Positions 1,051 through 49,079 of a stretch of DNA of 64,000 bases are shown piece by piece (within the stretch, counting starts at the first letter, position 1; each line of letters begins with the position of its first letter). The notes under the pieces were generated by a model that was not told the origin of the DNA, did no database searches, and worked only from the letters and a program-made list of their open reading frames with translations. The translations under genes and the position numbers were made by a program. The stretch is from Parapedobacter tibetensis (lineage in GTDB: Bacteria > Bacteroidota > Bacteroidia > Sphingobacteriales > Sphingobacteriaceae): assembly GCF_024704835.1 (NCBI RefSeq), contig NZ_JAMXBE010000002.1:186001-250000 (forward strand), written 5' to 3'.

Positions 1051-1156
1051 CTCATTTTTTAAGCCAAAAATATAACGTATTGTTTGATAGTGGGTTAATA
1101 CTATTTTCTTGGCAGGTAGTGTTCGATATCGAACACCTGTTGTCCAATAACGAACA
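1051..1156 (-). promoter_or_regulatory. Sigma-54-like promoter with paired palindromic upstream sites, before P1
   Basis: Proximal palindrome TGTTCGATATCGAACA at 1120-1135 and distal palindrome TGTCCAATAACGAACA at 1141-1156, 21 bp centre to centre. On the minus strand the -24 box TTTTTGGC starts its TGG at 1066. The -12 TG is at 1054-1053, with GG-N10-G spacing. The same arrangement and the same 54-bp offset recur at four other places. A partial IHF-like core, TATCAA, lies in the spacer. The regulator is inferred to be an NtrC-type enhancer-binding protein encoded elsewhere. Confidence 0.75.
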
Positions 1157-1169
1157 TCAGGCTAAACTA

Positions 1170-3542
1170 TCATTCATCCCGCAGCGACTCTACCGGATTG
1201 GCTAATGCTGCCCGGATCGCTTGCCAGCTGATGGTAAGCACTGCAATCGCCAGCACCACCACCCCCGCTAGGGCAAACATCCACCACTCGATATCGATAC
1301 GGTAGGCAAAACCTTCCAGCCATTTGTTCATCGCCCACCATGCAATGGGGGAGGCGACCGCCAGGGCAATCATCATCAGTTTAACGAAATCCTTAGAAAG
1401 CAGGGTTGCAATACCAGAGACAGACGCCCCCAATACCTTGCGGATACCGATTTCTTTGGTACGCTGTTGCACCCCTAATGAGATCAAACCAAATAGACCG
1501 AGGCAGCTGATGAGTATGGCCACGGATGCCGCTATCCAGATTAATTGTTGTTGGATGGATTCGGCAGCGTAGAGCTGTTCGATTTGGTTGTCAACGAATT
1601 GATATTGGAAAAGGCTGCCAGCATAACGGACTTTCCATTCCTCCTCCAGCTGGGAAACAAATGCTGCGACGTCTTGGCCATTGGTTTTGATGGCCAGTGA
1701 CTGCATAAACTGTTCGTTATAGCCTAGTACGGTGGGCTCGATGGTTTGGCGCAACGTATGGATATTATAATTGCCCACTACGCCGACAATGATGCCCGGG
1801 TCGCCATCAATACCACCAAACACCAATGATTTTCCGACAACGTCCTGCAGGTTGTCGAAGCCCAATTGATTGGCCATACGTTCATTGATCAAATATTCAT
1901 GTACCGCAGCCGTGGAGCGGATATTGCGCCCTGCTAATAGTTGGATACCGAATGCATGTACATACGCACTATCGGCGAATGTGGTTTTTGCCGACCAGGT
2001 TTCCCAATCCGGGCGGGTATCGAACCGTAGTGTTCCGCCCCGCTGGTCGTGGTTAGCGGGCGATCGGAAGCAATAGCTATAGGCAGTCACTCCCGGCTGT
2101 GCATCCAGGAACGAGCGCCAATGGCTATCATTGGCATGCCCTTTCGGTAAGGTCAGCATGATCACGGATTCCCTGTCAAAGCCAATGTCGGTTTGTTGTA
2201 AATAATGGACTTGGCGCATGATCACGATCGTAGCCAGTACCAGGCAAATGGAAAGCGTATTTTGGATAACCACCATAAGCCTCCGCCCCAATGGTTTCCC
2301 GAAACCAACCTGTTGCCGAATGGCTTGCAATGCATGGATCTTGCCAATCGTCCATGCCGGGTAAATTCCGGCTGCAAACCCAATGATCAACCAAGCGACA
2401 GCAGCTGAGATGATGAGTTGCAGTGTAGAAAATAGCAGTACCGGTTCCATCGGGAAGAGGTAGTTGTTGGCAAGGGGGATGGCGATAGCCACTAGGGCGA
2501 TGCCAAAAAGGGTTGCCAATGCAGCAACGACTAGCGATTCGGTTATCAGCTGCATAAAAAGCTGCCAACGGCTACTGCCCAACACTTTGCGCGTGCCGAA
2601 TTCGGAACTCCGCCGAGCATACTGAGCGATGGATAAATTGACGTAGTTGAGGAGCGCCATCAGCAAGACGGCCGTCCCGATGATTGCTAGGATAATAAGT
2701 AACGACTTTTGCATCGTTCCACCGTACCGCCCATTGAAATGCATATCCGTCAGCGGGAGTAAAGAAAATTTAAAGAGCTTTCCGGTTTCTTCGCCAAAGG
2801 TATCCAAGGTCATTGCCCGCAAGGTTTTTTCCACTTGCGCTGTTGTTGTTCCTTCAGCAAGACTGATATAGACTTGGTTGGTCGAATTGAGGTACCCCCA
2901 ATCGCTGAAAAAGCCGTCTTCCAACCCGGTTAGTACGTTTTTGATGGATGATTCCGAGATGTAGAACGCGTTTTTCAGGCTGGTATTGGAAGGTTCATCG
3001 GCCAAAACACCCACCACCTTAAGCGGCACTTCGCCCACCGAAATTAGCGCGCCCATCGGATCTTTGCTGCCAAAGAACCTAGCGGCTGTAGAAGCCGTCA
3101 ATACGACGGTGTTGGGCTGGTTCAGCGCTTCGGGCTTGCCTGCCAACCAATGGTAATCAAAGAGGTTGAACCAATCTGAAGCAGCGAAAGCACCTTTTTT
3201 TTCCGAGTCAAATAGCTGTCCGTTTACGCGGATGGTCAGGTCTTGATTGATCATGGCGAAGGCCGCTTGATCCACCCCCGCTACGTTGGTTTTCAACGCT
3301 TCGTAGATGGCATAGGAAGCCCCTTCATTATAAGATGTCTCCTCCAATAATAGGTCTGACACCAGCTTGTAGGTGTGCTGAGCCCGATTATGGTAATTGT
3401 CGTAACTGTTATGAAAGGTGATGTACCGATAAATAAATAACCCGCATCCGATAGCCACACCGAGCCCGATGATATGAAGAGCCGTATACCTAAAGTTCCT
3501 GCCTAGGCTTCGCAACGTAGTTTTGAGGTGGTTTATCTTCAT
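1170..3542 (-). CDS. P2: FtsX/MacB-like ABC permease (subfamily A)
   Basis: 790 residues. TM1 is near 20-42, the first periplasmic MacB-core domain about 45-270, TM2-TM4 about 280-405, TM5 about 430-450, the second periplasmic domain about 455-665, and TM6-TM8 about 675-785. The first coupling segment reads SSEFGTRKVLGSS, lacking the usual KE. The second is canonical, [14 protein letters not shown]. It ends NPVESLRDE. Its N-terminal half closely resembles P11 and P16 (shared motif around EGASYAIYEA / KGASYAMYKA), defining a subfamily. Last gene of the P6-P2 unit, 62 bp after P3. In the MacB/LolCDE superfamily such proteins couple cytoplasmic ATP hydrolysis to periplasmic work without moving substrate through the bilayer. 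The substrate is unknown. Confidence 0.93.
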   Translation of the reverse strand: MKINHLKTTLRSLGRNFRYTALHIIGLGVAIGCGLFIYRYITFHNSYDNYHNRAQHTYKLVSDLLLEETSYNEGASYAIYEALKTNVAGVDQAAFAMINQDLTIRVNGQLFDSEKKGAFAASDWFNLFDYHWLAGKPEALNQPNTVVLTASTAARFFGSKDPMGALISVGEVPLKVVGVLADEPSNTSLKNAFYISESSIKNVLTGLEDGFFSDWGYLNSTNQVYISLAEGTTTAQVEKTLRAMTLDTFGEETGKLFKFSLLPLTDMHFNGRYGGTMQKSLLIILAIIGTAVLLMALLNYVNLSIAQYARRSSEFGTRKVLGSSRWQLFMQLITESLVVAALATLFGIALVAIAIPLANNYLFPMEPVLLFSTLQLIISAAVAWLIIGFAAGIYPAWTIGKIHALQAIRQQVGFGKPLGRRLMVVIQNTLSICLVLATIVIMRQVHYLQQTDIGFDRESVIMLTLPKGHANDSHWRSFLDAQPGVTAYSYCFRSPANHDQRGGTLRFDTRPDWETWSAKTTFADSAYVHAFGIQLLAGRNIRSTAAVHEYLINERMANQLGFDNLQDVVGKSLVFGGIDGDPGIIVGVVGNYNIHTLRQTIEPTVLGYNEQFMQSLAIKTNGQDVAAFVSQLEEEWKVRYAGSLFQYQFVDNQIEQLYAAESIQQQLIWIAASVAILISCLGLFGLISLGVQQRTKEIGIRKVLGASVSGIATLLSKDFVKLMMIALAVASPIAWWAMNKWLEGFAYRIDIEWWMFALAGVVVLAIAVLTISWQAIRAALANPVESLRDE

Positions 3543-3604
3543 TTTTTAGCCATTAACTGCCCGACCGCCAATCTTCCGCCTGGACCAAGTTAACAATTTT
3601 CTGA

Positions 3605-6013
3605 TTATTCATCCCGCAACGACTCCACCGGATTGGCGCGATTTGCTTTCGTGCATAATCCAATAATCAATCCGTAAGCGAGTACAAAGACCAACAAGCA
3701 AACCAGTAAGTAAGCGCCTACATCTTGGCTTATCCGGTATGCATAGCCTTCCAACCATTTGTTGGCCATCCAATAGGTAATTGGCCAGGCAATGAGGTTG
3801 GCCAAAATGATGAGGCGGGTATAGTCCTTCATAAACAGCAAGGTAAGGTGTCTGAGTTCCGCCCCGAGCACCTTTCTTACAGCGATTTCTCTCCTGCGCT
3901 TGGCCAGCGTGAAGCTCACGATGCCGAATATACCCAGCGCAATAATCAAGAAATTCAACGTCGTAGCCACATCCGCCGCCCGTTTCAGCTGGAGCTCAGA
4001 TTGGTACAGGGAGGCAAATTGGTCGTCCATGAAGCTAAATTCAAACGGCGCGTCGGGTACTAATTTCTCCCATTGTTGCTTGATAAGCGGGATGGTTTCA
4101 GCCATATTTGTCCCGTTCAGTTTTAACGAGAGGAAGCGGTAGGAAAGCCAGTCCTGCACGTGGAAGAACGCAAGGGGTTTGATTTGCTCTTGCAAGCTGG
4201 AATAGTTGTAGTCTTTGACCACCCCCGCGATGGTGACCTCGTCGCCTGACGAAGGTGGCCGCAGTTTTTGATTGACCGCTGTTTCCGGTGTTAACCCCAA
4301 CGCCCTCACTGCCGATTCGTTCAGTACCACCTGGTTGGGGATATGGCCACCAGATTGCGAAAAGCAGGTGCCGGCGAGTACCGTCATCCCAAACGTATGG
4401 GCATAGTCCTGATCAACCCCGATGGAGTGAATCATCGTTACGGGGCTATCGCCTGTGGCCAACATGAACCCGAATGCATTTGGCGGTTGGCGCTTAGGCA
4501 CCTCAAACGACAGCGAAGCGCTTTCCACGGCCGCTAGCTCGGTGAGCGCGTGCTTTACTTCCATCATTTTTTGCACGCCGGTGGCATCCCATCGTTTCGG
4601 GAACGCGGTGATGACCATTACCTGGTCTTTGCTGTAGCCGATGTCTTTCGAGAAGATGTAGCCCACCTGGCGCGATACAATCAGCGTGCCGATAAACACC
4701 GCAATACCTAAGGTAAACTGGACGGTCAACATCGTTTTACGAAGGGTAAGATTGCCCACGGCGGTATCGATCTTCCCTTTTACGGCAGCGGTAACCGGCG
4801 ACGAGCTAAGCCGGAAGGCAGGGTAAATACCTGCCAAAAGACCGGTAATCAGCACGAGTGCCGATAGGCCTGCATATGCCGCCCATCCGAAATCGAATAC
4901 GGAATCCAATTGGGTGTTTAAAATTTCGTTAAAAACGGGTCGCAGCAGTTGGTAAAGCGGCAGGGAGAGCAGTGCAGCAAGCGCGGTAAGGAATAGGGCC
5001 TCACCGAGAAACTGGATAACCAGCTGTTGCTTGGCGCCGCCGAATACTTTGCGCAGGCCGATCTCTTTAAGCCGCTGTGATGATGTAACGATGCTGATAT
5101 TGACGAAGTTGATAACCGCCATCAGCAGGATGAACAGCGCTGATAACGACAGGATGGTGATCATTCGGCGGGCTGCGCCGCCGTTGTCATTGAGGTAATA
5201 GTCTTTCACCGGTGCCAGCTCAACGGTTAGGTTTTGCTGGATGTTTTCCGGCGTATATTTGGCAAGCACCTGCTGGCAGGGTACCACCAGATCGGCCGGT
5301 GTGACGCCTGGCTGAAGTTGGACCATGCCCATCTCGAAGGGATTGTCCCAACCGGACGCCGGATCTTCAAATCCGAAGTACATATTGCCTTCCGTGGGCA
5401 CGAATACCGAATAACCGTCGTCTACCAGGTGCGTAACCGAATTATAGGGGATATCTGCAATTACTGCAGAAACGTGATAATCTTGCTTTTCACCTTGCAC
5501 GGTGGTGTGGACGCTAATGGTTTCATTTATGGCGTCTTTTTTCCCAAACAGTTTGAGCGCCATACTTTCGGTGATGACGGCGGATTGGTTGTTGGGGAAG
5601 GGGCGGTCGGCATTGCCATAGCTAACCGGAAAGCCATACATCCGGATAAAGGAGGTATCACCGATGGCAATATCCTCCACAAAGTGCTTATCGCCTGCGG
5701 AGACAACATTATTTACCGGGTTGTACCGGTAATAGTCGGCCACTAACGATGGGTATTCTTCACGCAGCGTCTTGGCCAATGGTCCCAAGGTTGTGATATC
5801 CAGCCCGAGCCCTTCGGTTTTCCAGTTGCTTTTGACCATGTATTGATCATCGACGTTTCGGAGCGAGCGGTTGATGCTGTACTGATTGAGTACATACATA
5901 CCCACTACCATCGTGAAGGTGAGACCAATGGTAAGGCAGAAAACATGAATGAACGAAAACAGCTTGTGTTTTGATAGGTAGCGCCAGCCTGTTTTGAAAT
6001 AGTTCTTAATCAT
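3605..6013 (-). CDS. P3: divergent FtsX/MacB-like ABC permease
   Basis: 802 residues, starting MIKNYFKTGWRYL. The first coupling segment RLKEIGLRKVFGGA is typical. The second, RRREIAVRKVLGAE, has Ala in place of the usual Gly. The region around TM8 also differs: the common motif WWMFAVAGL is replaced by VGAYLLVCLLVFVLAYG, yet the protein still ends ANPVESLRDE, which suggests that the tail is kept under selection or by gene conversion. Fourth gene of the P6-P2 unit. The 196-bp gap to P4 upstream contains the 79-bp inverted repeat. Substrate unknown. Confidence 0.92.
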   Translation of the reverse strand: MIKNYFKTGWRYLSKHKLFSFIHVFCLTIGLTFTMVVGMYVLNQYSINRSLRNVDDQYMVKSNWKTEGLGLDITTLGPLAKTLREEYPSLVADYYRYNPVNNVVSAGDKHFVEDIAIGDTSFIRMYGFPVSYGNADRPFPNNQSAVITESMALKLFGKKDAINETISVHTTVQGEKQDYHVSAVIADIPYNSVTHLVDDGYSVFVPTEGNMYFGFEDPASGWDNPFEMGMVQLQPGVTPADLVVPCQQVLAKYTPENIQQNLTVELAPVKDYYLNDNGGAARRMITILSLSALFILLMAVINFVNISIVTSSQRLKEIGLRKVFGGAKQQLVIQFLGEALFLTALAALLSLPLYQLLRPVFNEILNTQLDSVFDFGWAAYAGLSALVLITGLLAGIYPAFRLSSSPVTAAVKGKIDTAVGNLTLRKTMLTVQFTLGIAVFIGTLIVSRQVGYIFSKDIGYSKDQVMVITAFPKRWDATGVQKMMEVKHALTELAAVESASLSFEVPKRQPPNAFGFMLATGDSPVTMIHSIGVDQDYAHTFGMTVLAGTCFSQSGGHIPNQVVLNESAVRALGLTPETAVNQKLRPPSSGDEVTIAGVVKDYNYSSLQEQIKPLAFFHVQDWLSYRFLSLKLNGTNMAETIPLIKQQWEKLVPDAPFEFSFMDDQFASLYQSELQLKRAADVATTLNFLIIALGIFGIVSFTLAKRRREIAVRKVLGAELRHLTLLFMKDYTRLIILANLIAWPITYWMANKWLEGYAYRISQDVGAYLLVCLLVFVLAYGLIIGLCTKANRANPVESLRDE

Positions 6014-6209: not shown

Positions 6210-8582
6210 TCACTCATCCCGCAACGAGTCAACCGGATTGGCTACCGCCGCCCGGATGGCCTGCCAGCTCACCGTGAGCAGCGCGATCACCACCGCCGCC
6301 AATCCTGACACGGCAAACATCCACCATTGGATGTCGATGCGGTAGGCAAAATCTTCCAGCCATCGGTTCATCGCCCACCAGGCAATGGGGGAGGCGATAA
6401 CCACGGCGATCAGTACCAGCTTGACAAAACCGGTTGAAAGTAGGTAGACCACGTTGCTTACGGAGGCACCCAATACCTTTCGCACGCCAATTTCTTTTAC
6501 CCGTTGTCCGGTCATGAATGCCGCAAGGCCGAACAGCCCCAAGCACGATATGGTAAGGGCCAACACGGCGAAGCATGTGGCGAGCTTGCTTACCAGCTGT
6601 TCACTTTGGTACAGTTTGGAAAATTCCCAGTCAGAAAATTGGTAAGTGAATGGAATAGTAGGATTTAACTTCTCACCAAGTTGCTTCAGACTCTTCAGTG
6701 CAGGGGCAATCTGTCCAGGGGCAATCCGGACGAGAATAGTGCCCCAACCCCAGTTTTCGTCCAGCCGCACAATTAACGGCTCTATAGTATGGTGCATTGA
6801 ATTGAAATGGAAGTCTTCGAGTACACCAACGACCTGACCTTGTCGCCCATCCCATTCCAATGGCTGTCCGAGCGGCTGTTGGAACCCCATGGCGTTCGCT
6901 GCAGTCTCATTGATGAGAAAGGACGCGGTATCAGCTCCGAACGCTGGGGAAAAATCACGCCCCGCTTTCAGACGGAGACGCATAGTCCTGACAAAATCGT
7001 ATCCAACCACCGCATCAGTGAAGGACAAGGTTGTGCCCGGAGGCTTGCCTGGCCAGGTAACACCCCAAGTGTGGTGTTCAATATAAGTGGGCGAATTGCG
7101 CATTTTTGATATGGAAAGGATACCGGGCATGGTAGCGGCCTGCGTCTTAAATAAGTCATAACGTGTGACAAGGTCACCCTCTATTGGGATGTACAATAGG
7201 TTACTGCGTTCATAGCCAATGTTGGCATGTTGAATGAAGGCCATCTGCCGCTGGAACACCAGCATCGCTGCTATAAGGATAATTGAAAGGCTGAATTGGA
7301 AAACCACTAAACCTTTCCTGAAAAATGCCCCGCCCTTAGCGGTTTTTTCCTTCAACGCCTGCAAGGGATTTAACGATGAAAGATATAGTGCCGGATAACT
7401 GCCTGAAAATAGCCCAACAATAAGCCATATACCAAACAATCCAAGCCAAAACTTGACCGTGGAAACCGGTATGAAAAGTTGTTTGCCCGTAAGTTCTTGG
7501 AATAACGGCAGGAGAGCAAATAGCAGCAGCAGGGAAATCGTGATTGAAACAGCTGTTAATGATAAGGCTTCCAACAGGTAACGGAAAGCCAATGATGCGC
7601 GACTAGCACCGATGGTTTTGAGTAACCCCACCTCCTTGGCCCGTTTCACTGCACCCGCGGTTGCTAGGTTCATGAAATTGATAGAGGCTATTACCAAAAT
7701 GAAGATAGCAAGTATCGAGAATAGTCGCACGTACGCTACACGTCCACCGCTGGGGTAGCCATTTTTAAACATGCCATTCAGGTATCGGCTGGGATATGAT
7801 TGCATGGCCAATTCTTGTTTTACCCCTTCTTGGCGGTCGATATACTGATACAGGAAGTCCTTAATCTTTCCCTCTACCTGCGCCGGATTGGCACCGGGCT
7901 TCAGGAGGATAAACGTGGCAGGCGAGGCATTCCCCCAGCGGCTGGCCCAGGCGTTTTGAGCCATGAAAGGTGCCCAGCTGCGCAAAAAATCAAACTGCTG
8001 GGAAGAATGCGGCGGCAAATCTTCAAAGACGGCAGTCACGCGCAATTCTTCCCGGGCTTCGAGGTTGATTGTCTGCCCCATTACCTTTTCGGGACTTCCG
8101 AAAAAGTAGGACGCCATCTTCCGCGAAATCGCGATGCCGTCGGGCGTTGACAGGGCCGTGGCTTTGTGGCCCAATAGCAGGGGGTAGGTAAACATAGAGA
8201 GGAAGTCATCACCAACGTGGAAACCGAGCATCTTGCCCGTTTTTTCACCCGTCTTCAAATTGCTGCTGGTGCCCGGTGCTGCGATGTATTCAAATCCGCT
8301 GGTCAAAGCGATTTCAGGCACCTTGTTTTTGAGCTCCTGTGCCAGCAACCCCTGTGTTGCAAAGCTTGCTTCCACTTTTCCTTCATAAAAGTTGCGGCTG
8401 TATACCTGGAAAAGCCGATCGCCCTGCTCGTGGAAATTATCCACACGCCGTTCATCCTGCACCCACAGCAGGATAAAAAGGCTGGCGCAAATCCCAATCG
8501 CCAACCCAGCAATATTGAGCAATGAAAATGCCCGATCCTTCATCAGGTATCGCCAAACCGTTTTGAAATAATTCTTTATCAT
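6210..8582 (-). CDS. P4: FtsX/MacB-like ABC permease
   Basis: 790 residues from the ATG at 8582 (MIKNYFKTVWRYL). An upstream ATG at 8636 is in frame, but the extra 18 residues (MGARTNKRMGELANK...) are a translation of the degenerate TTCGTTTATTCG spacer words, so it was rejected. The first coupling segment, RAKEVGLLKTIGAS, departs from the RKV consensus. The second, [14 protein letters not shown], is normal. The C-terminus is [14 protein letters not shown]1 resembles P1, P13 and P14 (LWVQ/WIQ + DER/NEL). Middle of the P6-P2 unit; 101 bp separates it from P5 upstream. Confidence 0.92.
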   Translation of the reverse strand: MIKNYFKTVWRYLMKDRAFSLLNIAGLAIGICASLFILLWVQDERRVDNFHEQGDRLFQVYSRNFYEGKVEASFATQGLLAQELKNKVPEIALTSGFEYIAAPGTSSNLKTGEKTGKMLGFHVGDDFLSMFTYPLLLGHKATALSTPDGIAISRKMASYFFGSPEKVMGQTINLEAREELRVTAVFEDLPPHSSQQFDFLRSWAPFMAQNAWASRWGNASPATFILLKPGANPAQVEGKIKDFLYQYIDRQEGVKQELAMQSYPSRYLNGMFKNGYPSGGRVAYVRLFSILAIFILVIASINFMNLATAGAVKRAKEVGLLKTIGASRASLAFRYLLEALSLTAVSITISLLLLFALLPLFQELTGKQLFIPVSTVKFWLGLFGIWLIVGLFSGSYPALYLSSLNPLQALKEKTAKGGAFFRKGLVVFQFSLSIILIAAMLVFQRQMAFIQHANIGYERSNLLYIPIEGDLVTRYDLFKTQAATMPGILSISKMRNSPTYIEHHTWGVTWPGKPPGTTLSFTDAVVGYDFVRTMRLRLKAGRDFSPAFGADTASFLINETAANAMGFQQPLGQPLEWDGRQGQVVGVLEDFHFNSMHHTIEPLIVRLDENWGWGTILVRIAPGQIAPALKSLKQLGEKLNPTIPFTYQFSDWEFSKLYQSEQLVSKLATCFAVLALTISCLGLFGLAAFMTGQRVKEIGVRKVLGASVSNVVYLLSTGFVKLVLIAVVIASPIAWWAMNRWLEDFAYRIDIQWWMFAVSGLAAVVIALLTVSWQAIRAAVANPVDSLRDE

Positions 8583-8683
8583 TCCTTTTTGCTTATTTGC
8601 TAACTCGCCCATTCGTTTATTCGTCCGAGCGCCCAAAGCGAATTAACGCATATGCACATCCGCGAATAGGCGCAAAAATAAAA

Positions 8684-13743: not shown

Positions 13744-13849
13744 TACAGCAATTGCGCCAAAAGTTTAATATGCTTATATTCAGCACATTATATGAAATAA
13801 GGGCATGGCAAGTGTTCGATTCCGAACACTTGCTGTTCAGATGCGGACA
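13744..13849 (-). promoter_or_regulatory. Sigma-54-like promoter with paired palindromic upstream sites, before P6
   Basis: Palindromes TGTTCGATTCCGAACA (13813-13828) and TGTTCAGATGCGGACA (13834-13849), 21 bp apart. On the minus strand the -24 box TTTTGGCGCAA has its TGG at 13759-13757. The -12 TGT has its G at 13746. The spacer to the operator is the same length as in the other four modules, although its sequence is largely different. Confidence 0.78.
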
Positions 13850-14774: not shown

Positions 14775-15797
14775 CTAAAATGATTTTCGCGCGGTCATCA
14801 AGAAAGGGTTTTCGATGTGTTCACGCTGATTCTGCAAAATCATTTCAGCTATGCTAATACCCATCTGATGGAAATCCGGGCTGATGGTGGTAATTCCGTC
14901 AGCAACAATGCTTTTAAGCGGCGTCTCATGGTAGGAAATAACGCCCAACTCTTGCCCTAACTCCCACCCTTTTTCTTTGGCATATAACACTAGTCGCACA
15001 AGGTCATTATCATCCATTACCAAGCATAAGTCTCCTAAGTTTGGCTCAAACGTCGCGGTATTGCGGATGACCTGCGCCTTAAATTTTGAAAGCTTGAAAA
15101 ACCGTTCAAATCCTTTGATTACATCATAGTTCCGCATATTCCCTGAAAATAGCAGAAAAATACGCCTATACCGGAGCAACTTCCCCGCAACAGATTCTAA
15201 AAAAGCGTAGATATCTTTTTCGTAATTCTGGCAAACCCCAGGGTAACGTTTACCGAACTCCTTTAAGCCGGTATCCAAAATAAATAGGTTGCGCTGGTCC
15301 AACCGCTTTAATACCGATTCCGTCCGCTTGTGGATTTCAGGCATGATTACAAACGTATTGTAATGCGAAGTATGATTCTGTATCAAGGTTTCGAAAACCT
15401 CAATGTTATGGTGATGGAAGTAAATATCCACCAAAGCATGGTTTTTCAGTTTACTTGTGAAAGCACTGTAAAATATTTCGCGGTAGGGATTATAGGTACT
15501 CATCAGCAAAAAGATGTTTCGCTTGCTGGTTTGGCGGGTATTGATTACAAAATATCCCTTACCCGGAATGGAATCGATGATGCCCGCTGTTCGCAACTCA
15601 TTGTAGGCTTTGAATATTGACCCTCTAGCAATGGAAAATTGAGCAGCAATGGCATTCACAGATGGAATAAGAGCTCCCTGTTGCAAATGGCCATCAGCTA
15701 TTGCCTGCTGTATTGATTCAACAATCTGCCGGTAGATGGGAGTCGATAAATCACTATCGATTTTGATAAGTTGTTGTCCTTCCTTGGTTGTATCCAT
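14775..15797 (-). CDS. GntR-family regulator with LacI-like sugar-binding sensor domain
   Basis: 340 residues. A winged-helix GntR DNA-binding domain occupies about 19-88 (PIYRQIVESIQQAI, IPSVNAIAAQFSIARGSIFKAY, GIIDSIPGKGYFV). A periplasmic-binding-protein-like sensor domain follows at about 95-330, as in the LacI/GalR family. It is transcribed divergently from murQ, and the shared intergenic region holds a 20-bp palindrome directly over the murQ start. The inferred role is a local repressor of the murQ-NAGLU-SusCD-MFS operon, relieved by a sugar ligand, possibly an amino sugar or its phosphate. The ligand is not readable from sequence. Confidence 0.85.
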   Translation of the reverse strand: MDTTKEGQQLIKIDSDLSTPIYRQIVESIQQAIADGHLQQGALIPSVNAIAAQFSIARGSIFKAYNELRTAGIIDSIPGKGYFVINTRQTSKRNIFLLMSTYNPYREIFYSAFTSKLKNHALVDIYFHHHNIEVFETLIQNHTSHYNTFVIMPEIHKRTESVLKRLDQRNLFILDTGLKEFGKRYPGVCQNYEKDIYAFLESVAGKLLRYRRIFLLFSGNMRNYDVIKGFERFFKLSKFKAQVIRNTATFEPNLGDLCLVMDDNDLVRLVLYAKEKGWELGQELGVISYHETPLKSIVADGITTISPDFHQMGISIAEMILQNQREHIENPFLMTARKSF

Positions 15798-15837
15798 TCG
15801 ATATTAATCTGTTGCAAGGTAAATAATTATTGAATCA

Positions 15838-15868
15838 TTTGCATAATAAAAAACAATTTATAGATTTG
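15838..15868 (+). promoter_or_regulatory. Promoter of the murQ operon (Bacteroidota consensus)
   Basis: An exact TTTG (15838-15841), 19-bp spacer and TAGATTTG (15861-15868) match the TTTG-N19-TAnnTTTG consensus. The predicted start is near 15874, giving a leader of about 60 nt before the murQ ATG at 15936. Confidence 0.8.
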
Positions 15869-15887
15869 TACTAGTATATACTGGTAC
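15868..15887 (+). promoter_or_regulatory. Predicted GntR operator over the murQ transcription start
   Basis: GTACTAGTATATACTGGTAC is a 20-bp inverted repeat with one symmetric mismatch pair. It abuts the -7 element and covers the expected +1, the ideal position for a repressor. The divergent GntR-family gene is the natural candidate to bind it. Confidence 0.72.
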
Positions 15888-15935
15888 ATATAACACACAG
15901 TTAACAATTTAGTCATATCCAACCCGCAATTTTAC

Positions 15936-19049: not shown

Positions 19050-19099
19050 ATGCTTACTAAGAAAGGAGGACGAATGAGACAAATCTTCAAATAAAAAAA

Positions 19100-34570: not shown

Positions 34571-34676
34571 CACAGTTTTCACACCAAAAAAGTAATATAT
34601 TGATAATGAGTATACTTTCTAAGTATGTATTGGTAAAAGTGTTCGATATCGAACACCTGTTGTCCATATGCGAACA
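34571..34676 (-). promoter_or_regulatory. Sigma-54-like promoter with paired palindromic upstream sites and IHF-like site, before P9
   Basis: Palindromes TGTTCGATATCGAACA (34640-34655) and TGTCCATATGCGAACA (34661-34676), 21 bp apart. On the minus strand the -24 box TTTTTTGGTGTG has TGG at 34586-34584. The -12 CTGT has its G at 34573. TATCAATATATTA (34605-34593) matches the IHF consensus and lies at exactly the same offset as in the P8 module. The gap 34362-34749 otherwise holds the P9 leader and a -7-like TACTTTTG (34706-34713) that may serve the plus-strand pair. Confidence 0.8.
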
Positions 34677-40503: not shown

Positions 40504-42942
40504 TCACTCATCCCTTAGGCTGTCCACCGGGTTGGCCATCGCCGCCCGTATCGCTTGCGAGCCCACAGTCAGTACGGCGACCACCATGGCCGCCAATCCG
40601 GCGCCTGCAAACATCCACCATTCGATATCAATGCGGTACGCAAAGTCGGCCAACCATTGATTCATGGCCCACCATGCGATGGGTGAAGCGATAACCAGGG
40701 CTATGACGACCAGTTTCACGAAGTCTTTAGACAAGAGACGTACGATGCTGCCTACTGTTGCGCCCAGTACCTTGCGAATGCCGATTTCCTTACTGCGCGT
40801 ATGAATGGTGTAGGTAGCCAAACCCAGCAATCCAAGGCAACTGATTAAAATAGAAAGCGACATCGCCCAGGTCAATAAGCTGGCGGTAGCTTGTTCGCGT
40901 TCGTAAAACTGACCAATCATCTCATCCACAAATTGATAGTTGAAATCCTCATCGGGATACAGGCTGTGGTATGCTTTTTGGATTTGAGCTATCGCATCGC
41001 TCCACGATTGGCCATCTCGGTTTGGCTTGAGCCGCACATGGAAGGTCGATCCGTTATTTTTTTGAAACACCAAGGGGCTAATGAATGACCGGGTAGATTG
41101 ATCGTGAAAATTTTTCATGACCCCCACAATCGGTACCGCATTGCCGTTCCAGCTCAGAAATTCACCCAACGCTTTTTCCGGCTGCTGGAAACCGATTTCC
41201 TTCGCAAACTGCTCGTTGATAAGAATTTCGTTCGTAGAATCACCAGGCAGTATATTCCTGCCCGCAACTAGCTTAATTCCGTATACATCAAGGTAATGTT
41301 CGTCACCCCACCGGATTTGGGAATTCGGTTTCAGTTCTTCCTTGCCGTTGTGGTAGGCGACGTTGGTAAAAGCCACCCCGCGGTCGGCCGGAGCGAAAAA
41401 TCCGGTGCTCGCCAACTCGATTCCTGGAAGGGATTGGACGGTATGCAACAGCTGCCTGCTACGCGTTTCGGCTACGTCTCTAGGCACATCAAACTTGACA
41501 ACGGCCTTCGTGTCGAACCCCATATCAGAGTCAATGGAATAGTTGATTTGCTGGCTTACAATGATGGTCGCCAAAATAAAAAACTGGGCAATGGCGAATT
41601 GGGATACGGTTAGTATTTTGCGTATGCCCGCATGCCGGGTCTGTCCGGTCAGTCCCGACACCTGATTTCTTAAAACGGCTGTAGGGGTATATCCAGACAA
41701 GATCAGTGCGGGGTAACATCCAGCAAGAAAACTGACCACCGCGACCAGCAGCAAGAGCAGCAACGCATAGCCGGGTTGGAACATGAAATCGGTCGTCAGT
41801 CCCTCGGGGATGAACTTGGAGAATAACCGAAGGATTATCGGGATGGATAGCACCGCAAGGAGGGTAGCGATACTGGTCATGACGACGGTTTCACCCAGAA
41901 ATTGTCGAATCAATTGCATCTTGGAGCTACCCATCGTTTTGCGGATGCCAATTTCTTTTGCCCGTTGCGATGCCTGTGCGGTGGTGAGGTTGATAAAATT
42001 GATGCAGCCCAACAGTAGCAGGAAAGCCGCCACGGCCATTAGGCCATAGAGCGTCGTCTTCTGTGCAATACGGCCATTGATGCTGGGGTAGAGGCGATTG
42101 AAATGGATGTCATGGAGCGGTTGCAGGGTAAGCGTGATGTCCTTACCCCGTTCGGTGTTGTGTTGTTGATAAAGCACATTCAGCTGAGCCTGAGCAGCGT
42201 CTGCCGACTGGTTTGCCGATAATTTGACAAAGAGTTGGGAATAGGTCATCCAGTCATCCCACACATCCATCATGAAATTATCCTTCAGCGGAGAAGCTTC
42301 AATGGTAGCCAAGGAAATGAACTCCCTACCTCCGAAATGCGTGGGCTTATCCAGATCGTCCACAATACCGGATACGGTAAGGGTCAGGTCATTATAGGTG
42401 AGCTGTTTACCGATGACCGCTACGGGTGATAGATCTGGAAAATAGAGCCGTGCACGGCTTTGCGTGATTACAACGGTGAATGGTTGTGCTAGGGCATTCG
42501 ATCGTTCTCCGCCAATCCACTCGTATCCCAGCAATTGGAAGTAATCACTGTTAGTAAAGACAATCTCTTTTTGTTTTTTGAATAGACGGGGTTTGGAAGC
42601 ATTGTCCCCATCAACTTGCACGTCGGCGGTGGCATCACGTTGAAACTGGAATACGGGGATGGTTTGTTCGATTCCCGTGAGGGCACTTGGTAGGGCATTG
42701 CCTAAAGGTGCAGGCACGCCGACACTGTGACCTTCAACCCCATTGAAGTTGGCATCGAGCACGACGCGGTATATCTGGTCGTTATCGGGTTGGAAGGTGT
42801 CGAAGCTGAATTCGTAATAGACGATCAAGGAGATGACCACGGCCGAACTAATGCCAATGAACAGCCCGAGCATATTCAATATCGTGAAGAGCTTGTTGCG
42901 CCACAAGTGGCGATAGGTGGCTTTGAAAAAGTTTTTTAGCAT
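40504..42942 (-). CDS. P12: FtsX/MacB-like ABC permease
   Basis: 812 residues starting MLKNFFKATYRHLWRNKLFT. Coupling segments are RAKEIGIRKTMGSS and [14 protein letters not shown]. The first periplasmic domain is longer than average and includes a Lys-rich insert (DNASKPRLFKKQKEIVF). The tail is [12 protein letters not shown]. It precedes P11 in the ATPase-led unit; the 141-bp gap to P13 contains the second copy of the inverted-repeat element. Confidence 0.92.
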   Translation of the reverse strand: MLKNFFKATYRHLWRNKLFTILNMLGLFIGISSAVVISLIVYYEFSFDTFQPDNDQIYRVVLDANFNGVEGHSVGVPAPLGNALPSALTGIEQTIPVFQFQRDATADVQVDGDNASKPRLFKKQKEIVFTNSDYFQLLGYEWIGGERSNALAQPFTVVITQSRARLYFPDLSPVAVIGKQLTYNDLTLTVSGIVDDLDKPTHFGGREFISLATIEASPLKDNFMMDVWDDWMTYSQLFVKLSANQSADAAQAQLNVLYQQHNTERGKDITLTLQPLHDIHFNRLYPSINGRIAQKTTLYGLMAVAAFLLLLGCINFINLTTAQASQRAKEIGIRKTMGSSKMQLIRQFLGETVVMTSIATLLAVLSIPIILRLFSKFIPEGLTTDFMFQPGYALLLLLLVAVVSFLAGCYPALILSGYTPTAVLRNQVSGLTGQTRHAGIRKILTVSQFAIAQFFILATIIVSQQINYSIDSDMGFDTKAVVKFDVPRDVAETRSRQLLHTVQSLPGIELASTGFFAPADRGVAFTNVAYHNGKEELKPNSQIRWGDEHYLDVYGIKLVAGRNILPGDSTNEILINEQFAKEIGFQQPEKALGEFLSWNGNAVPIVGVMKNFHDQSTRSFISPLVFQKNNGSTFHVRLKPNRDGQSWSDAIAQIQKAYHSLYPDEDFNYQFVDEMIGQFYEREQATASLLTWAMSLSILISCLGLLGLATYTIHTRSKEIGIRKVLGATVGSIVRLLSKDFVKLVVIALVIASPIAWWAMNQWLADFAYRIDIEWWMFAGAGLAAMVVAVLTVGSQAIRAAMANPVDSLRDE

Positions 42943-43083: not shown

Positions 43084-45456
43084 TCACTCATCCCGCAACG
43101 ACTCCACCGGATTAGCCACTGCCGCCCGTATGGCTTGCCAACTCACCGTCAATAGCGCGATCAGCAACGCTGCAATCCCCGCTACAACAAACATCCACCA
43201 CTCAATATCGATCCGAAACGCGAAATCGTCCAGCCAGGTATTCATTACCCACCATGCAATGGGCGAGGCGATGACAACGGCCAAGAACACCAATAGGATA
43301 GACCCGGTAGACAGCAGTTGCACGATGCTGCCCACACTTGCTCCCAGTACCTTGCGGATACCGATTTCCTTCACCCGTTGGCGAACCGTGTAGGTTGAGA
43401 GCCCCAAAAGACCGAGGCAGGAAATGAAAATCGCAATGCCGGCGAATATGTTGAAAAGAAGGCCAGCACGCTGATCCGTCCGGTATTTAGCCTCAAACTG
43501 CTGGTCTACAAAGTTATACTTGAAGGGAGCGGGGGCGTCGCCCGCATATTTTTGGTATTGCTGTTCAACGGCCTTAATGGCGTTCGAAGCCTTCGTTGCG
43601 GTGGTACGTACATACAGCATGTTGCCATCCCACCAATGGAAAAAGAGCAATGGGCCAATTTTCTCTTTGAGGGGCTTGAAATTAAAGTCCTTCACGACGC
43701 CGGCGATGGTTCCCGGCCGCTCGTGGAAACTGATGGGCGTGCCCACATAGGGCGGAGTGAGGCCCATTTCCCTGATGGCTGCTTCATTAACAACATATAG
43801 GTTGCTGTCGGCTGCTGTACCTGTTATATTCCGCCCTTCCAACAATTGGATACCCATGGTGGGGATAAAATCCTCGTCGATTGATGATTGAGTGATGATG
43901 AGGCTACTGTTGGCAGGTTTTCCGGGCCACTCGAGGTCACCCGTAGCAGCGCCGGCATTGGTCATGTCGTACATATCTGAAAGCGCGACATTGATGATGC
44001 CCGGATGGTTTCTCAATTCATTTTTCACCGCATCGATATGCTCCACCGCATCGTCGGGGAGCGATACACTGAATACGTAACTTTTATCGTAGCCGAGATC
44101 GAGCTCCCGCATGTAGGTCATTTGGCGGCTGATGACGAATGTGGCTACGATCAGCACCATGGAAATGGCGAACTGGAAAACCACGAGGACCTTGCGAAGT
44201 AGTGCGGCGCCGGTGCCGGAAGCCATTTTCCCTTTCATCACCTGGAGCGGCTGGAAGCCGGAAAGTAGGAGCGCAGGATAGATAGACGCCGCTAGTAACG
44301 TACCCAACGCTGAGTAACCGATGACTTTCCAGATTTCCACGTTGGATAGCGAAAAGTGGAGTTGCTTGCCAGCGATGTTGTTGTACAGCGGTAGGAGTAA
44401 GACAATCAGTCCGATGGCGATCAACAAGGCGAAACAGAATAGCAACGCGGTTTCCACGATAAATTGCATGAACAATTGCACCTTGCTGGCGCCGACAACC
44501 TTCCGGATGCCCACCTCACGGGCCCTCACCAGCGCACGGGCGGTGGTGAGGTTGATATAGTTTACCGCCGCAATAGCCAACACCATGATGGCAATGAGCA
44601 AAAAGATCTGTACCATCCTTGCAGGGGCATTGTTTCCGTCTACACTAACCAGATGCATGTCTGCGAGTGGCTGTAATTTAAACTGCACCGTGCTTTCCCC
44701 GTTTCGCGCATCTTTGTACAGTTGGGTGAACTTTTTTCCGACCGCCTCGGGACGGGCATTGTCACGTAATTTGACAAAAGTGGTAAAAGAGTAACTGCCC
44801 ATGTCTACATCGATGGTTTTCCACTGGCCATTGCCCCCATCGGCGGTAAATCGCTGCGCATAATAGGCCATGGGTAACAGGGCGTCAAATGCCAGGGACG
44901 AATTATCCGGAAAGTCGTGCAGCAATCCGGTAACGGTGAGGTTATCTCCCCTGAATTGGAGTACCTTGCCGATAGGGTCATCGGCTCCGAAGAATTTTTT
45001 TGCTGTCGATTCAGTCAGGACAATGCTATGCGGGTTGGGGAATAGCTGCGCGGGCTTTCCGTCGAGCAGCTCGAAGTTGAATAGCGTTAAAAAAGTACTG
45101 TCTACATAGGCGGTGGTAAAACCATCGAGCACGGTACTCCGGTCTTCGGTAGCCAGTACCTGGCCATTCCACTCGTTTACACGGACAATGCCCTCGACCT
45201 CGGGCAGAGACTGGGCATAAACGGCTAGTGGTCCGGGTACCCCTTCCCAAACGGTATTGGCATCCAAATGGGCGGTAAACCGATGGATACGGGAATAGTC
45301 CGTATGGAAGCGATCGTAACTTCGCTCATGTTGCACCCAAAGGAGCAGCAAAATAGCCGTAGCCAAGCCAAACGCTAAGCCACTGACGTTAACGAAGGTA
45401 TGGAACTTGTGTTCCTTCAGGTTCCGCCACGCGGTTTTGAAATAGTTCTTGATCAT
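43084..45456 (-). CDS. P13: FtsX/MacB-like ABC permease
   Basis: 790 residues starting [20 protein letters not shown]. Coupling segments are RAREVGIRKVVGAS and [14 protein letters not shown]; the following helix LLSTGSILLV replaces the common LLSKDFVKL. TM1 and the next residues (LLLLWVQHERSYDRFH) resemble P4 and P14. The tail is AVANPVESLRDE. Second permease of the ATPase-led unit. The 171-bp gap to P14 has the CAGCTATCAGCCATCAG words. Confidence 0.93.
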   Translation of the reverse strand: MIKNYFKTAWRNLKEHKFHTFVNVSGLAFGLATAILLLLWVQHERSYDRFHTDYSRIHRFTAHLDANTVWEGVPGPLAVYAQSLPEVEGIVRVNEWNGQVLATEDRSTVLDGFTTAYVDSTFLTLFNFELLDGKPAQLFPNPHSIVLTESTAKKFFGADDPIGKVLQFRGDNLTVTGLLHDFPDNSSLAFDALLPMAYYAQRFTADGGNGQWKTIDVDMGSYSFTTFVKLRDNARPEAVGKKFTQLYKDARNGESTVQFKLQPLADMHLVSVDGNNAPARMVQIFLLIAIMVLAIAAVNYINLTTARALVRAREVGIRKVVGASKVQLFMQFIVETALLFCFALLIAIGLIVLLLPLYNNIAGKQLHFSLSNVEIWKVIGYSALGTLLAASIYPALLLSGFQPLQVMKGKMASGTGAALLRKVLVVFQFAISMVLIVATFVISRQMTYMRELDLGYDKSYVFSVSLPDDAVEHIDAVKNELRNHPGIINVALSDMYDMTNAGAATGDLEWPGKPANSSLIITQSSIDEDFIPTMGIQLLEGRNITGTAADSNLYVVNEAAIREMGLTPPYVGTPISFHERPGTIAGVVKDFNFKPLKEKIGPLLFFHWWDGNMLYVRTTATKASNAIKAVEQQYQKYAGDAPAPFKYNFVDQQFEAKYRTDQRAGLLFNIFAGIAIFISCLGLLGLSTYTVRQRVKEIGIRKVLGASVGSIVQLLSTGSILLVFLAVVIASPIAWWVMNTWLDDFAFRIDIEWWMFVVAGIAALLIALLTVSWQAIRAAVANPVESLRDE

Positions 45457-45627: not shown

Positions 45628-48012
45628 TCACTCATCGCGCAGCGAGTCCACCGGATTCGCCACCGCTGCCTTAATCGCCTGCCAACTTACCGTCAGCAAG
45701 GCGATTACGGCGGCTAACACCCCCGTCAGCACGAACACCGACCATTCGATGTCGATTCGGTAAGTATAGGTGCCCAGCCATTTATCCATGGCATACCAAG
45801 CTATGGGCGAAGCGATAAGGAAAGACAGCATCACCAGCTTCAGGAAGTCTTTCGACAGCAAATGGGTGACACTCCACACGGATGCGCCAAGTACCTTTCG
45901 TACCCCGATTTCCTTGGTCCGGCTTTCCGCCATGTATGCCGCCAATCCGAATAGGCCCAAGCAGGATATCAGGATAGTGAGCAGTGCAAAAAGACCTGCC
46001 AGTTTGCCCGACCGCTCGGCACTCTTGAACTTTTGGGCATAGTTTTCATCGGCAAACACATATTCGAACGGGTATTGCGGATTGTATGTCTTGAATATTT
46101 TTTCCATCCGGGCGAGGTTTTCCGCCGTAGTATGAGCAGGATTCAGCTTCACATGTAGTATATTCGGTGAATAGCCCGCTGGTCCATTAACCATCATTGG
46201 GTTAATCGTCTGTTCAAAAGGTGACTCAAGGATAAAATCTTTAATCACTCCCACGACGTGGAAGTACTCAGTCGCCCCTATCCATTTGATACGCGTGCCG
46301 ATGGGGTTCTTGAGGCGCATGGCCTTCACAGCAGCTTCGTTCAGCAATAGCGCCATGCTATCGGTGGGATATTTATACACGTCGATATCGCGGCCCTCAA
46401 CCAATTCGATGCCAAAGGTCTTGGTGAAATCGGCATCCGTACCCAACCGTACAAAGTCAATTTTTTCATCCGCCTTTGTGCTCCCTTCCCAATGGAAGCC
46501 CCAGCTGTCGCTCCAACGTTGCGTGATGGGGTTGGCCGAAAGGGAGACCGATGTCGCTGAGCCGTTGTCGAGCAATTCATGTCTAACGGAAGCATAATGC
46601 TTGTCCATATCTCCCTGATAAAAGAGGTATACGAGGTTATTTCGATTGTATCCGGAATCCCGATTTAGCCCATATTGGATTTGGTGGTAAACAATGATGG
46701 TGGCAATGATCAGGATAATGGCAAAGGTAAACTGTATGGTAACCAGTATCTTCCTCGGGGCAACCAATGCATTTTGTTTTTTGAATGTCCCTTTTAATAC
46801 CGCTACCGGATTGAATGACGACAGGTAAAAGGCGGGATAGCTGCCCGCCACCACGCCGGTAATCAGAATAAACCCAAGGGCAAATAGCCAAAAGGAGAGA
46901 TTTCCATAAGGGACGAACAGTTCTTTCCCCACCAATTGGTTGAAGCCACTGAGGCTCACCTGCACGATCAGCAGTGCCACGAGGAAAGAAAAGGCACTCA
47001 GCAGGACACTTTCCACTAAAAATTGCGTAATCAATAGGCTTTTGCTTACGCCGACCACTTTGCGGATACCTACTTCCTTGGCACGCCGTTCGCTTCGTGC
47101 CGTGCTCAGGTTCATAAAATTGATGCAAGCGATCAGGAGGATGAATGCTGCGAGGACCATGAATAATCGCACAGTGGTGATGTTGCCGGCCACCAATTTG
47201 CCGTCTTCTGACTTGCCATAGAGGTAGTAGCGGCTCAGCGGCTGCGTAAATACCTCCGTTGTAGAGGCATTTTTCGTATCTTTGGTATGGTCGATGGTGA
47301 TGGTTCTGACCTTTTGGTCGAACGCCTGCTGACTGGCTCCCGGCTTCAGTAGCGTATATGTCCTAACCGAGTTGTTGCCCCACTGGGTGTCGTTCCAGCC
47401 CAATCGGTCCATGTGGTCCCAAGGAAGAAGGTAGTCGAATGCTAATAACGTATTGTTCGGCAGATCTTTCAAGATGCCGGTTACCGTGACATTGCGGTTG
47501 CTATCAATGCGGATGGTTTTGCCCATAGCTTCGGCATTGCCGAACAGTGTTTTGGCAAATTTTTCGGTCAATACAATGCTGTGTCCGTCTTTCAACGCTG
47601 TCGTCTCATCGCCATAAACGAGCGGAAAGTTGAAGAGATTGAAAAATCCACTATCCGTAAACGCGCCTCGGGAGTTCAGTCTTTTATCACCTATGGTGAA
47701 TAGAAAGGTAATATTGTTGAACCGCACAGCGTCTTCTACCTCGGGGTAGTCGGCCTTCAATGTCGGCGCGAGTATCTTGGGCGTGTTGTTCCATGCCCAG
47801 CGGTTTCCCTCAGGATCCGAATCGTGGTTATGCATCACGTAGATACGGTCTTCCTTTTCATGGAAACGATCCATACTGAGCTCATTCTGGATCCAGCCGA
47901 TAATCAACATGGCCGCCGCCATGCCAATGGACAGGCCTGTAATGTTTATCAATGAGTAGGCTTTGTTCTTGGCGAAATTCCGGAGTAGCGTTCTAAGGTA
48001 GTTCGTGATCAT
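45628..48012 (-). CDS. P14: FtsX/MacB-like ABC permease next to the ATPase
   Basis: 794 residues starting MITNYLRTLLRNFAKNKAYS. Coupling segments are RAKEVGIRKVVGVS and [14 protein letters not shown]. The tail is [12 protein letters not shown]. It is the permease directly after the ATPase (138-bp gap), so it is the best candidate for the original cognate partner. It groups with P1 and P17 by the motif RSE(R/K)RAKEVG in front of the first coupling segment. Confidence 0.93.
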   Translation of the reverse strand: MITNYLRTLLRNFAKNKAYSLINITGLSIGMAAAMLIIGWIQNELSMDRFHEKEDRIYVMHNHDSDPEGNRWAWNNTPKILAPTLKADYPEVEDAVRFNNITFLFTIGDKRLNSRGAFTDSGFFNLFNFPLVYGDETTALKDGHSIVLTEKFAKTLFGNAEAMGKTIRIDSNRNVTVTGILKDLPNNTLLAFDYLLPWDHMDRLGWNDTQWGNNSVRTYTLLKPGASQQAFDQKVRTITIDHTKDTKNASTTEVFTQPLSRYYLYGKSEDGKLVAGNITTVRLFMVLAAFILLIACINFMNLSTARSERRAKEVGIRKVVGVSKSLLITQFLVESVLLSAFSFLVALLIVQVSLSGFNQLVGKELFVPYGNLSFWLFALGFILITGVVAGSYPAFYLSSFNPVAVLKGTFKKQNALVAPRKILVTIQFTFAIILIIATIIVYHQIQYGLNRDSGYNRNNLVYLFYQGDMDKHYASVRHELLDNGSATSVSLSANPITQRWSDSWGFHWEGSTKADEKIDFVRLGTDADFTKTFGIELVEGRDIDVYKYPTDSMALLLNEAAVKAMRLKNPIGTRIKWIGATEYFHVVGVIKDFILESPFEQTINPMMVNGPAGYSPNILHVKLNPAHTTAENLARMEKIFKTYNPQYPFEYVFADENYAQKFKSAERSGKLAGLFALLTILISCLGLFGLAAYMAESRTKEIGVRKVLGASVWSVTHLLSKDFLKLVMLSFLIASPIAWYAMDKWLGTYTYRIDIEWSVFVLTGVLAAVIALLTVSWQAIKAAVANPVDSLRDE

Positions 48013-48150
48013 CTTCTTATGTTGATTCGCTGATTCGTTTCTCCCGATATCGCTTCACTCATCGGGACGTCACTTTGTTCCGTTTGCCGATTCGTTTATT
48101 CGCTGATTTGTTTTTTCGCACATAAGCGCATTTGCGAATCAGCCAAACGG

Positions 48151-48825
48151 TTATCCCACCGTCTCCATCAGCACTTGTCCATCCAACATACGGATGACAC
48201 GGTCGGCATAGCGGGCATCGTGTTCGCTGTGGGTCACCATCACGATAGTGGTACCCTGCTCGTTTAGTTCAGTAAGCAACTGCATCACTTCATTACCATT
48301 GTTGGAGTCGAGGTTACCAGTAGGCTCATCCGCGAGGATCAATTTAGGGTTGTTTACCACGGCACGGGCTACTGCCACACGCTGCTGCTGACCACCGGAA
48401 AGCTGCTGCGGGAAGTGATTGCGGCGGTGCATGATCTGCACCTTTTCCAATACCTCTTCGACACGTCTCTTGCGTTCAGCGGCGGGTACTTTGGTATAAA
48501 TAAGCGGCAGTTCGACGTTTTCGAATACGGTAAGCTCATCGATGAGGTTGAAGCTCTGAAACACGAAGCCGATGTTGTGCTTACGCAAATCTGAGCGTTT
48601 GCGCTCATTATACTTGGCCACCTCAATGTTGTTGAAGAGGTAACTTCCTTCATCAAGGTCGTCCAACAGCCCAACAATGTTGAGTAGGGTGGATTTGCCA
48701 CAGCCTGATGGACCCATCACGGCAACAAACTCGCCTCCCTTTACGTGGATACTCAAGTCATTGAGCGCTACCGTTTCCACTTCCTCGGTACGGTAAAATT
48801 TTTGAAGTTTTGAGATATTGATCAT
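48151..48825 (-). CDS. ABC transporter ATPase, MacB/LolD type, the only one in the window
   Basis: 224 residues, the normal size for a stand-alone LolD/MacB-like nucleotide-binding subunit. Walker A GPSGCGKST (38-46), Q-loop Gln90, signature LSGGQ (142-146), Walker B LILADE (162-167) with catalytic Glu167, and H-loop His199 are all intact. It should dimerise on the cytoplasmic face and drive FtsX-type permeases through their coupling helices. Its sigma-54-like module gives it the same predicted control as P1, P6, P8 and P9, consistent with one ATPase serving all 17 permeases. Leader about 138 nt. Confidence 0.96.
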   Translation of the reverse strand: MINISKLQKFYRTEEVETVALNDLSIHVKGGEFVAVMGPSGCGKSTLLNIVGLLDDLDEGSYLFNNIEVAKYNERKRSDLRKHNIGFVFQSFNLIDELTVFENVELPLIYTKVPAAERKRRVEEVLEKVQIMHRRNHFPQQLSGGQQQRVAVARAVVNNPKLILADEPTGNLDSNNGNEVMQLLTELNEQGTTIVMVTHSEHDARYADRVIRMLDGQVLMETVG

Positions 48826-48973
48826 ATTGTTAGCAGTTAGCTTTTAGCTATTGGCCGTCAGCCTTAGAAGGTTGATGCCATTAGCTATTGTGGTTCACTA
48901 TTTGTTTTCTTTTATTTTTAGCCTACCGGCTTTTTATTTTAAATGTTATACGCTATACCCATGCCCTTACCCT

Positions 48974-49079
48974 ACACATTATCGTTCCAAAATTTTAATT
49001 ATCTGTTTATCAATAGCTTGTTTGTTGGTTGTATTTCGAAACTGTTCGATATCGAACACCTGTTGTTCGATTGCGGACA
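48974..49079 (-). promoter_or_regulatory. Sigma-54-like promoter with paired palindromic upstream sites and IHF-like site, before the ATPase
   Basis: Palindromes TGTTCGATATCGAACA (49043-49058) and TGTTCGATTGCGGACA (49064-49079), 21 bp apart. On the minus strand the -24 box TTTTGGAAC has TGG at 48989-48987. The -12 is less clean: G residues at 48977 and 48975 flank the expected 48976. An IHF-consensus match TATCAATAGCTTG lies at 49008-49020 in the orientation opposite to the P8 and P9 modules. Confidence 0.75.

Follow-up and report, generated by a model that had tools for sequence, protein, structure and literature searches.

Regulons of the NtrC type with paired sites combine a promoter carrying -24 and -12 elements with twin palindromes lying about two helical turns apart near -100, and they are governed by an activator of REC-AAA+-Fis architecture whose kinase gene lies alongside. 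We describe a predicted system of this kind in Parapedobacter tibetensis (RefSeq assembly GCF_024704835.1), on a 64,000-nucleotide stretch of contig NZ_JAMXBE010000002.1 (positions 186,001 to 250,000 of the forward strand), which we term the window and which corresponds to C12:186001-250000 of the 5.98-Mb assembly. The system differs from the known regulons in its targets, which make up a tripartite exporter set with about 34 permeases. Five copies of a regulatory module, each consisting of two palindromes and a promoter-like element, precede permease genes and the gene of an ATP-binding cassette (ABC) ATPase in the window. We consider it very probable that these modules are sigma-54 promoters and that both palindromes are bound by an NtrC-type regulator, here named EBP_A, which co-activates the whole exporter set.

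The general scheme of sigma-54 regulation with upstream activation is also laid out in PMC12316311 (2025), in which promoter matrices predict that COG0577, the FtsX-type antimicrobial-peptide permeases, is under sigma-54 control in Bacteroidia, gamma-Proteobacteria and Opitutia; the authors call this prediction first evidence. The kind of permease and the sigma factor are the same as those described here, but the passages of that paper considered here name no activator, upstream site or shared set of ATPase, adaptor and TolC genes for it, and neither "upstream activat" nor "palindrom" occurs in its main text. In the open-licence literature, we found no published description of this activator, site or regulon.

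The five modules are located at positions 1051-1156, 13744-13849, 31723-31828, 34571-34676 and 48974-49079 of the window, all on the minus strand, and a re-reading of the sequence places them exactly where the initial annotation had. Searching for the palindrome pair with up to three mismatches returns only these five places in the 64 kb (10 rows, as each place is read on both strands), whereas 100 dinucleotide shuffles of the window yield none. The twin palindromes span 1120-1156 in module 1 (proximal 1120-1135, distal 1141-1156), 13813-13849 in module 2 (13813-13828 and 13834-13849), 31792-31828 in module 3 (31792-31807 and 31813-31828), 34640-34676 in module 4 (34640-34655 and 34661-34676) and 49043-49079 in module 5 (49043-49058 and 49064-49079). 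As first described, a 5-bp gap separates the two palindromes in all five modules, and the offset to the promoter-like element is 54 bp throughout, with 53 bases in between and the T of TGG as the 54th. Four of the five elements have the spacing GG-N10-G, as had been claimed: those at 1052-1066 (module 1) and, extended to GG-N10-GT, at 13745-13759, 31724-31738 and 34572-34586 (modules 2 to 4). The exception is module 5, upstream of the ATPase gene, whose -24 element (48975-48989) is followed by a G at N9 or N11 instead of N10.

Fourteen permeases fall under these modules, 13 inside the window and one running off its low end, in agreement with the number initially proposed. The latter, an 803-residue open reading frame (ORF), would be driven by module 1. 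Module 2 heads five MacB/FtsX-type permeases reaching from 13685 down to 1170 (11241-13685 as the first gene, then 8684-11137, 6210-8636, 3605-6013 and 1170-3542); module 3 heads two (29072-31453, the first gene, and 26524-28974) and module 4 one (31977-34361), all of them, like the modules, on the minus strand. Below module 5 lie the 224-residue ABC ATPase (48151-48825, minus strand; Pfam ABC_tran) and five minus-strand permeases at 45628-48012, 43084-45456, 40504-42942, 38061-40445 and 35501-37909, the second of which has two MacB_PCD and two FtsX stretches in Pfam. Three more permease ORFs of the window (58793-61195, minus strand; 61274-62422; and one extending from 62541) fall in a run whose heading module, at C12:251059, lies outside the window past its high end. 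The ORF at 61274-62422 is of half length (382 residues) and lies between full-length permeases; it could be a natural half or a remnant.

To follow the modules across the genome, we scanned by the pair pattern alone, with no promoter element required and with the pattern read backwards as the control. Seventeen modules were found, 12 with a 5-bp and five with a 6-bp spacer; a search fixed at 5 bp misses the latter five, all of which are recovered at 6 bp, and the reversed pattern has no place in the 5.98-Mb genome with either spacer. A TGG is present at 52-54 nt on at least one side of all 17 modules, and the 51-55-nt bin contains 18 TGG, whereas the remaining 5-nt bins average 2.5 and never exceed 6. 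The constant geometry put forward initially holds within the window, but genome-wide it relaxes to a TGG offset of 52-54 and a palindrome spacer of 5 or 6 bp. The initial annotation had also considered that the motif might be scattered without promoter association; instead, a -24 element and a gene below are present at every one of the 17 modules.

Most of these modules are concentrated in a 142-kb cluster (C12:128001-270000) that contains 11 of them, together with 31 permeases of full length and two short ones (ORFs of 382 and 110 residues), all permeases being on the minus strand. Each permease run in the cluster starts below a module, and all 31 full-length permeases are in module-headed runs; the run at 140162-151517 also includes an unassigned 192-residue ORF. 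A module at 258364 heads an HlyD-family adaptor (C12:256934-258187; Pfam HlyD_3) and two permeases. Elsewhere in the genome, single permeases are found below modules on contigs C3, C56 and C78, a TolC-type protein (OEP) below one on C8 and a second ATPase below one on C3. By domain content, each part of an exporter is represented below a module: the adaptor (HlyD_3), the ATPase (ABC_tran), the permease (MacB_PCD/FtsX) and the channel (OEP). The predicted module-headed set is one adaptor, two ATPases, an outer-membrane channel and about 34 permeases, so that the single regulon first proposed, of an ATPase and at least 14 permeases, is supported by the sequence but appears too small, lacking the adaptor, the channel and some of the permeases. 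A module on C4 (L234:1500-2323) precedes a 198-residue protein with a signal-like start and no Pfam family, which we list as a secreted protein. Further small proteins of no assigned family are found below modules in the loci L139 and L158 of other genomes.

Among the window's five proximal palindromes, four have the same sequence, and the permeases are paralogous to one another, as would be expected if the modules were copies left by recent duplication of permease operons and their constancy reflected common descent instead of selection. The divergence around the modules makes this explanation extremely improbable. When aligned, the 31 cluster permeases have a median identity of only 33% (24-72%), the spacers of about 53 bp between palindrome and promoter differ in sequence between modules by eye, and the same geometry is found ahead of TolC, HlyD and ATPase genes in other genera.

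The promoter element can be assessed without selection in other genomes, as our DNA-level scan of named genomes (84,980 species, each represented once) required the twin sites and GCCA at 50-57 nt but no -12 element. The resulting sample comprises 80 listed loci from 115 stretches, several of them from the same genome or close relatives, and all counts drawn from it are lower bounds. These loci contain at least 81 modules, 69 of which precede a permease, HlyD, ATPase or TolC gene, with the downstream gene defined as the longest ORF starting no more than 450 nt below the promoter. The gene below is a permease in 33 cases, HlyD in 23, the ATPase in eight and TolC in five, and none of these in 12 (four of them without an ORF); one module counted among the 12, in L155, was read in one orientation and has an ATPase (93%) on its other side, and we left the count as it is. 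The sigma-54 promoter signature is TGG-N10-TTG[C/T]. Among the 78 distinct sites listed, a G at exactly 10 nt after GG, usually following TT, is present in the promoters of permease (31 of 33), ATPase (8 of 8) and TolC genes (5 of 5), 44 of 46 combined, and in 9 of the 12 unassigned promoters. In a separate set of palindrome-only loci from relatives, TGG lies at 52-54 nt in 19 of 23 (24 were given, and one without a pair at threshold was dropped).

The adaptor genes behave differently, as only 4 of the 20 HlyD promoters have GG-N10-G. On the strength of 31 of 33 against 4 of 20, the sigma-54 element can be assigned to the permeases and not to most adaptor genes. Dimer-binding palindromes near promoters are common, and HlyD promoters lacking a canonical -12 would fit a reading in which the palindromes are ordinary dimeric repressor or activator sites at a housekeeping promoter and the TGG belongs to something else. 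We regard this as very improbable: the palindromes lie some 90-110 bp upstream of the expected start, a long way off for simple repression, a sigma-54 activator gene is linked to them, and TT with GG-N10-G recurs in the unselected permease, ATPase and TolC promoters at the frequency given above. For sigma-54 promoters with an NtrC-type upstream activating site, as proposed in the initial annotation, these -12 counts, a full RpoN and the linked activator described below provide sequence-level support. The HlyD promoters, mainly in Sphingobacteriaceae, have TGGCAC at a fixed place (L029:8364-8400, for example), with the -12 G at N9 or absent. Such deviating promoters may allow basal expression.

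The listed modules are distributed across Sphingobacterium, Parapedobacter, Olivibacter, Pedobacter, Spirosoma, Dyadobacter, Runella, Emticicia, Larkinella and Pontibacter, and are also present in metagenome-assembled genomes of Tannerella and Prevotellaceae. In three genomes of the window's genus, the site pairs are identical in every base to those of named Parapedobacter records (G007 to P. defluvii L138, G003 to P. koreensis L143 and G002 to P. composti L155), which by itself would make Parapedobacter the probable source of the window. Four records are labelled Chrysiogenales, Sphingomonas, Novosphingobium or Proteobacteria. HlyD, ATPase and permease genes adjoin the Novosphingobium site (L187), which is an outlier with an offset of 57 and no GG-N10-G, and a permease lies alongside the Chrysiogenales-labelled site (L130). 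These two module-like sites and the Proteobacteria-labelled one (L172) may reflect horizontal transfer, mislabelled bins or an older origin.

A sigma-54 system requires a dedicated sigma factor and an activator, and the genome has candidates for both. One full match to Sigma54_DBD (E 2.2e-55) represents RpoN, and four strong matches to the sigma-54 activator domain are present, with seven weaker ones that by score are other AAA proteins; the whole-genome search gave no match to this domain within C12:186001-250000. The likely activator of the modules, judged from locus linkage and distribution, is EBP_A (C3:58653-60002), which combines a receiver, a Sigma54_activat (AAA+) domain and a Fis-type helix-turn-helix, all three as Pfam domains, and is followed by the kinase gene HK_A. 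In all 24 closer orthologs (L063-L086), the recognition helix has the sequence TRxALYRRL. Orthologs of EBP_A are present in 19 of the 80 listed module loci, compared with none for the other three activators. In several relatives (L097, L100, L101, L103, L104, L109 and L110), EBP_A and HK_A stand back to back with an array of adaptor, ATPase and permease genes, where we identified the adaptors by eye on the basis of their N-terminal sequences. In the 700 nt upstream of EBP_A, 8 of 30 loci have a palindrome pair with a score of 20 or more out of 24; no shuffle exceeds 18, and pairs scoring 16-17, close to what chance gives, were not counted as evidence. Three of these eight loci (G024, G045 and G009) additionally have an element of the TGGTATA type pointing towards EBP_A at a distance of 53-54 nt, a hint of autoregulation.

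The distribution of EBP_A across genomes points in the same direction. We compared 80 genomes, scoring EBP_A as present at 50% identity or more and counting permeases as loose, first-look MacB_PCD candidates, which are not confirmed genes. EBP_A is present in 29 of the 80. The strict 5-bp pair pattern occurs in 20 of these 29 compared with 2 of the 51 genomes without it, and the reversed control pattern occurs in 2 of the 80, once in each. Each genome with EBP_A has 11-77 MacB_PCD candidates, and all but one of the 51 without it have 1-10, so that having many (at least 11) or few (at most 10) tracks the presence of EBP_A in 79 of 80 genomes. Among the genomes that lack EBP_A, G002 shows the pair at two places, along with 9 candidates and no more than a partial match to HK_A. 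This co-variation joins site geometry, the -24/-12 elements, target identity and the linkage of EBP_A as the parts of our proposal that are based on sequence.

Along with the adaptor promoters and the window's ATPase promoter, which lack GG-N10-G, several observations weigh against our interpretation. Some concern the promoters: the 5' leader predicted for module 1 is by eye only about 2 nt long, up to the likely ATG at 1038, and eight other ORFs with PF12704 matches (on C6, C23, C34, C35 and C45) have no module. Others concern the activator. GAFTGA is the expected loop motif of sigma-54 activators, but the loop of EBP_A reads GAFTDA. In the window's genome, EBP_A is on another contig (C3) with no module upstream, and none was seen upstream of eight EBP_A genes in the genus, of which those in L067 and L069 are cut at contig ends and thus in effect untested. 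Finally, the co-variation counts are not independent events because the compared genomes are related, and there are discordant cases among them. Nine of the 29 genomes with EBP_A lack the strict 5-bp pair, three of which (G010, G021 and G028) have diverged sites by eye, and G022 has 12 palindrome-pair places (on contigs C51, C62, C88, C97, C105, C110 and C115) and 60 MacB_PCD candidates but neither EBP_A nor HK_A in an assembly that is 100% complete by score. A tRNA-Val gene (L034:9159-9234) lies just upstream of EBP_A with apparent partial copies of the tRNA end alongside, by eye; it may be a trace of the rearrangement by which EBP_A became separated from the exporter genes.

With four strong activator matches in the genome, and with G022 retaining pair places without EBP_A, the sigma-54 promoters might use these sites under the control of one or several of the other three enhancer-binding proteins. 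The best placed of these is encoded on C34, about 5 kb from a short MacB-type protein, and its presence also tracks the motif (18 of 29 genomes with it compared with 4 of 51 without). The module loci do not bear this out, as orthologs of EBP_A alone among the four occur there. Moreover, 8 of the 10 family genomes that have the C34 activator but not EBP_A at the 50% threshold lack the motif and have 5-8 permease candidates, whereas the nine genomes with EBP_A but not the C34 activator have 11-53 candidates, though the strict motif in only four of the nine. An assignment to the other activators is therefore improbable, though less so than the two alternatives considered above. The C34 activator as regulator of the modules was weighed and set aside on locus linkage and genome distribution.

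Taking EBP_A as the activator, we infer binding, phosphorylation, activation, shared use of the ATPase and the substrates in the following scheme. The upstream activating site would be two adjacent palindromes, TGTYCG-N4-CGRACA, with centres 21 or 22 bp apart at approximately -88 and -109. EBP_A would occupy both, with two dimers probably sitting on the same helical face. HK_A, encoded beside it, would phosphorylate EBP_A, and the phosphorylated form would remodel the closed sigma-54 polymerase complex. About 17 promoters could in this way be switched on together, for the ATPase, the HlyD adaptor, the TolC channel and the roughly 34 MacB/FtsX-type permeases. The most likely product would be a family of tripartite exporters with a common ATPase, adaptor and channel and a differing permease.

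Such exporters resemble MacAB-TolC and the darobactin exporter DarBCD, with which they share an HlyD-type adaptor, an ABC ATPase, a MacB/FtsX permease and an outer-membrane channel, but they differ in that permeases outnumber the ATPase, which is encoded separately. In MacB proper the ATPase is fused to the permease; here it is a protein of its own (224 residues), and for the six permeases scanned, the match to the MacB model is confined to its C-terminal part. The same six score 96-173 bits against the DarB model (cut-off 700) and 226-330 bits against TIGR03434, the duplicated permease of the ADOP type (cut-off 622). For the window's ATPase, the best NCBIfam match is DarD, at 299 bits and under the cut-off of 375.

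A further comparison is offered by the kinase. HK_A has two hydrophobic stretches, at residues ~6-28 and ~31-48, with few residues between them, a layout kept by eye across 16 aligned sequences. Two membrane helices joined by a tiny loop are the architecture of kinases that detect signals inside the membrane. Because the two-helix layout is nearly loopless, with almost no periplasmic loop, it suggests intramembrane or load sensing, in which HK_A would respond to envelope stress or transporter load and not to a soluble periplasmic ligand. The BceRS-BceAB peptide-sensing modules likewise have a two-helix, tiny-loop kinase, and in relatives HK_A is encoded beside FtsX-type permease genes, as in those modules. 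Bce-type response regulators are OmpR-type. EBP_A, by contrast, is a sigma-54 activator, and the exporter it would control is a Gram-negative tripartite one. We raise one broader idea only tentatively, as we hold it to be somewhat less probable than its negation: the nearly loopless kinase might sense damage or cargo at the inner membrane and release some 34 interchangeable permeases that compete for the common ATPase, adaptor and TolC. This would amount to a Gram-negative equivalent of Bce-type peptide sensing, found across Bacteroidota, in which export is combinatorial.

Other features of the window are interspersed with the exporter genes. Between two permease operons, positions 14775-26366 hold a carbohydrate-use island with genes for a GntR regulator, a SIS protein, an alpha-N-acetylglucosaminidase, a SusC/SusD-type pair, an MFS transporter and an AAA_14/DUF4143 ATPase. 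Inside the exporter cluster, positions 55392-57302 encode a 636-residue protein with a C-terminal LuxR-type helix-turn-helix. An Rfam search of the window gave nothing at gathering thresholds, and ARAGORN found no tRNA in it.

Overall, the proposed mechanism is of a known kind; what appears to be new is the site, the activator assigned to it and the composition of the regulon. Our analysis proposes an activator, a predicted binding site and a list of targets for many permeases that are otherwise annotated only as MacB-like. If the proposal is correct, a single deletion strain should switch off more than 30 transporters at once, and the joint function of the permeases and the use of one ATPase by many of them would become directly testable.

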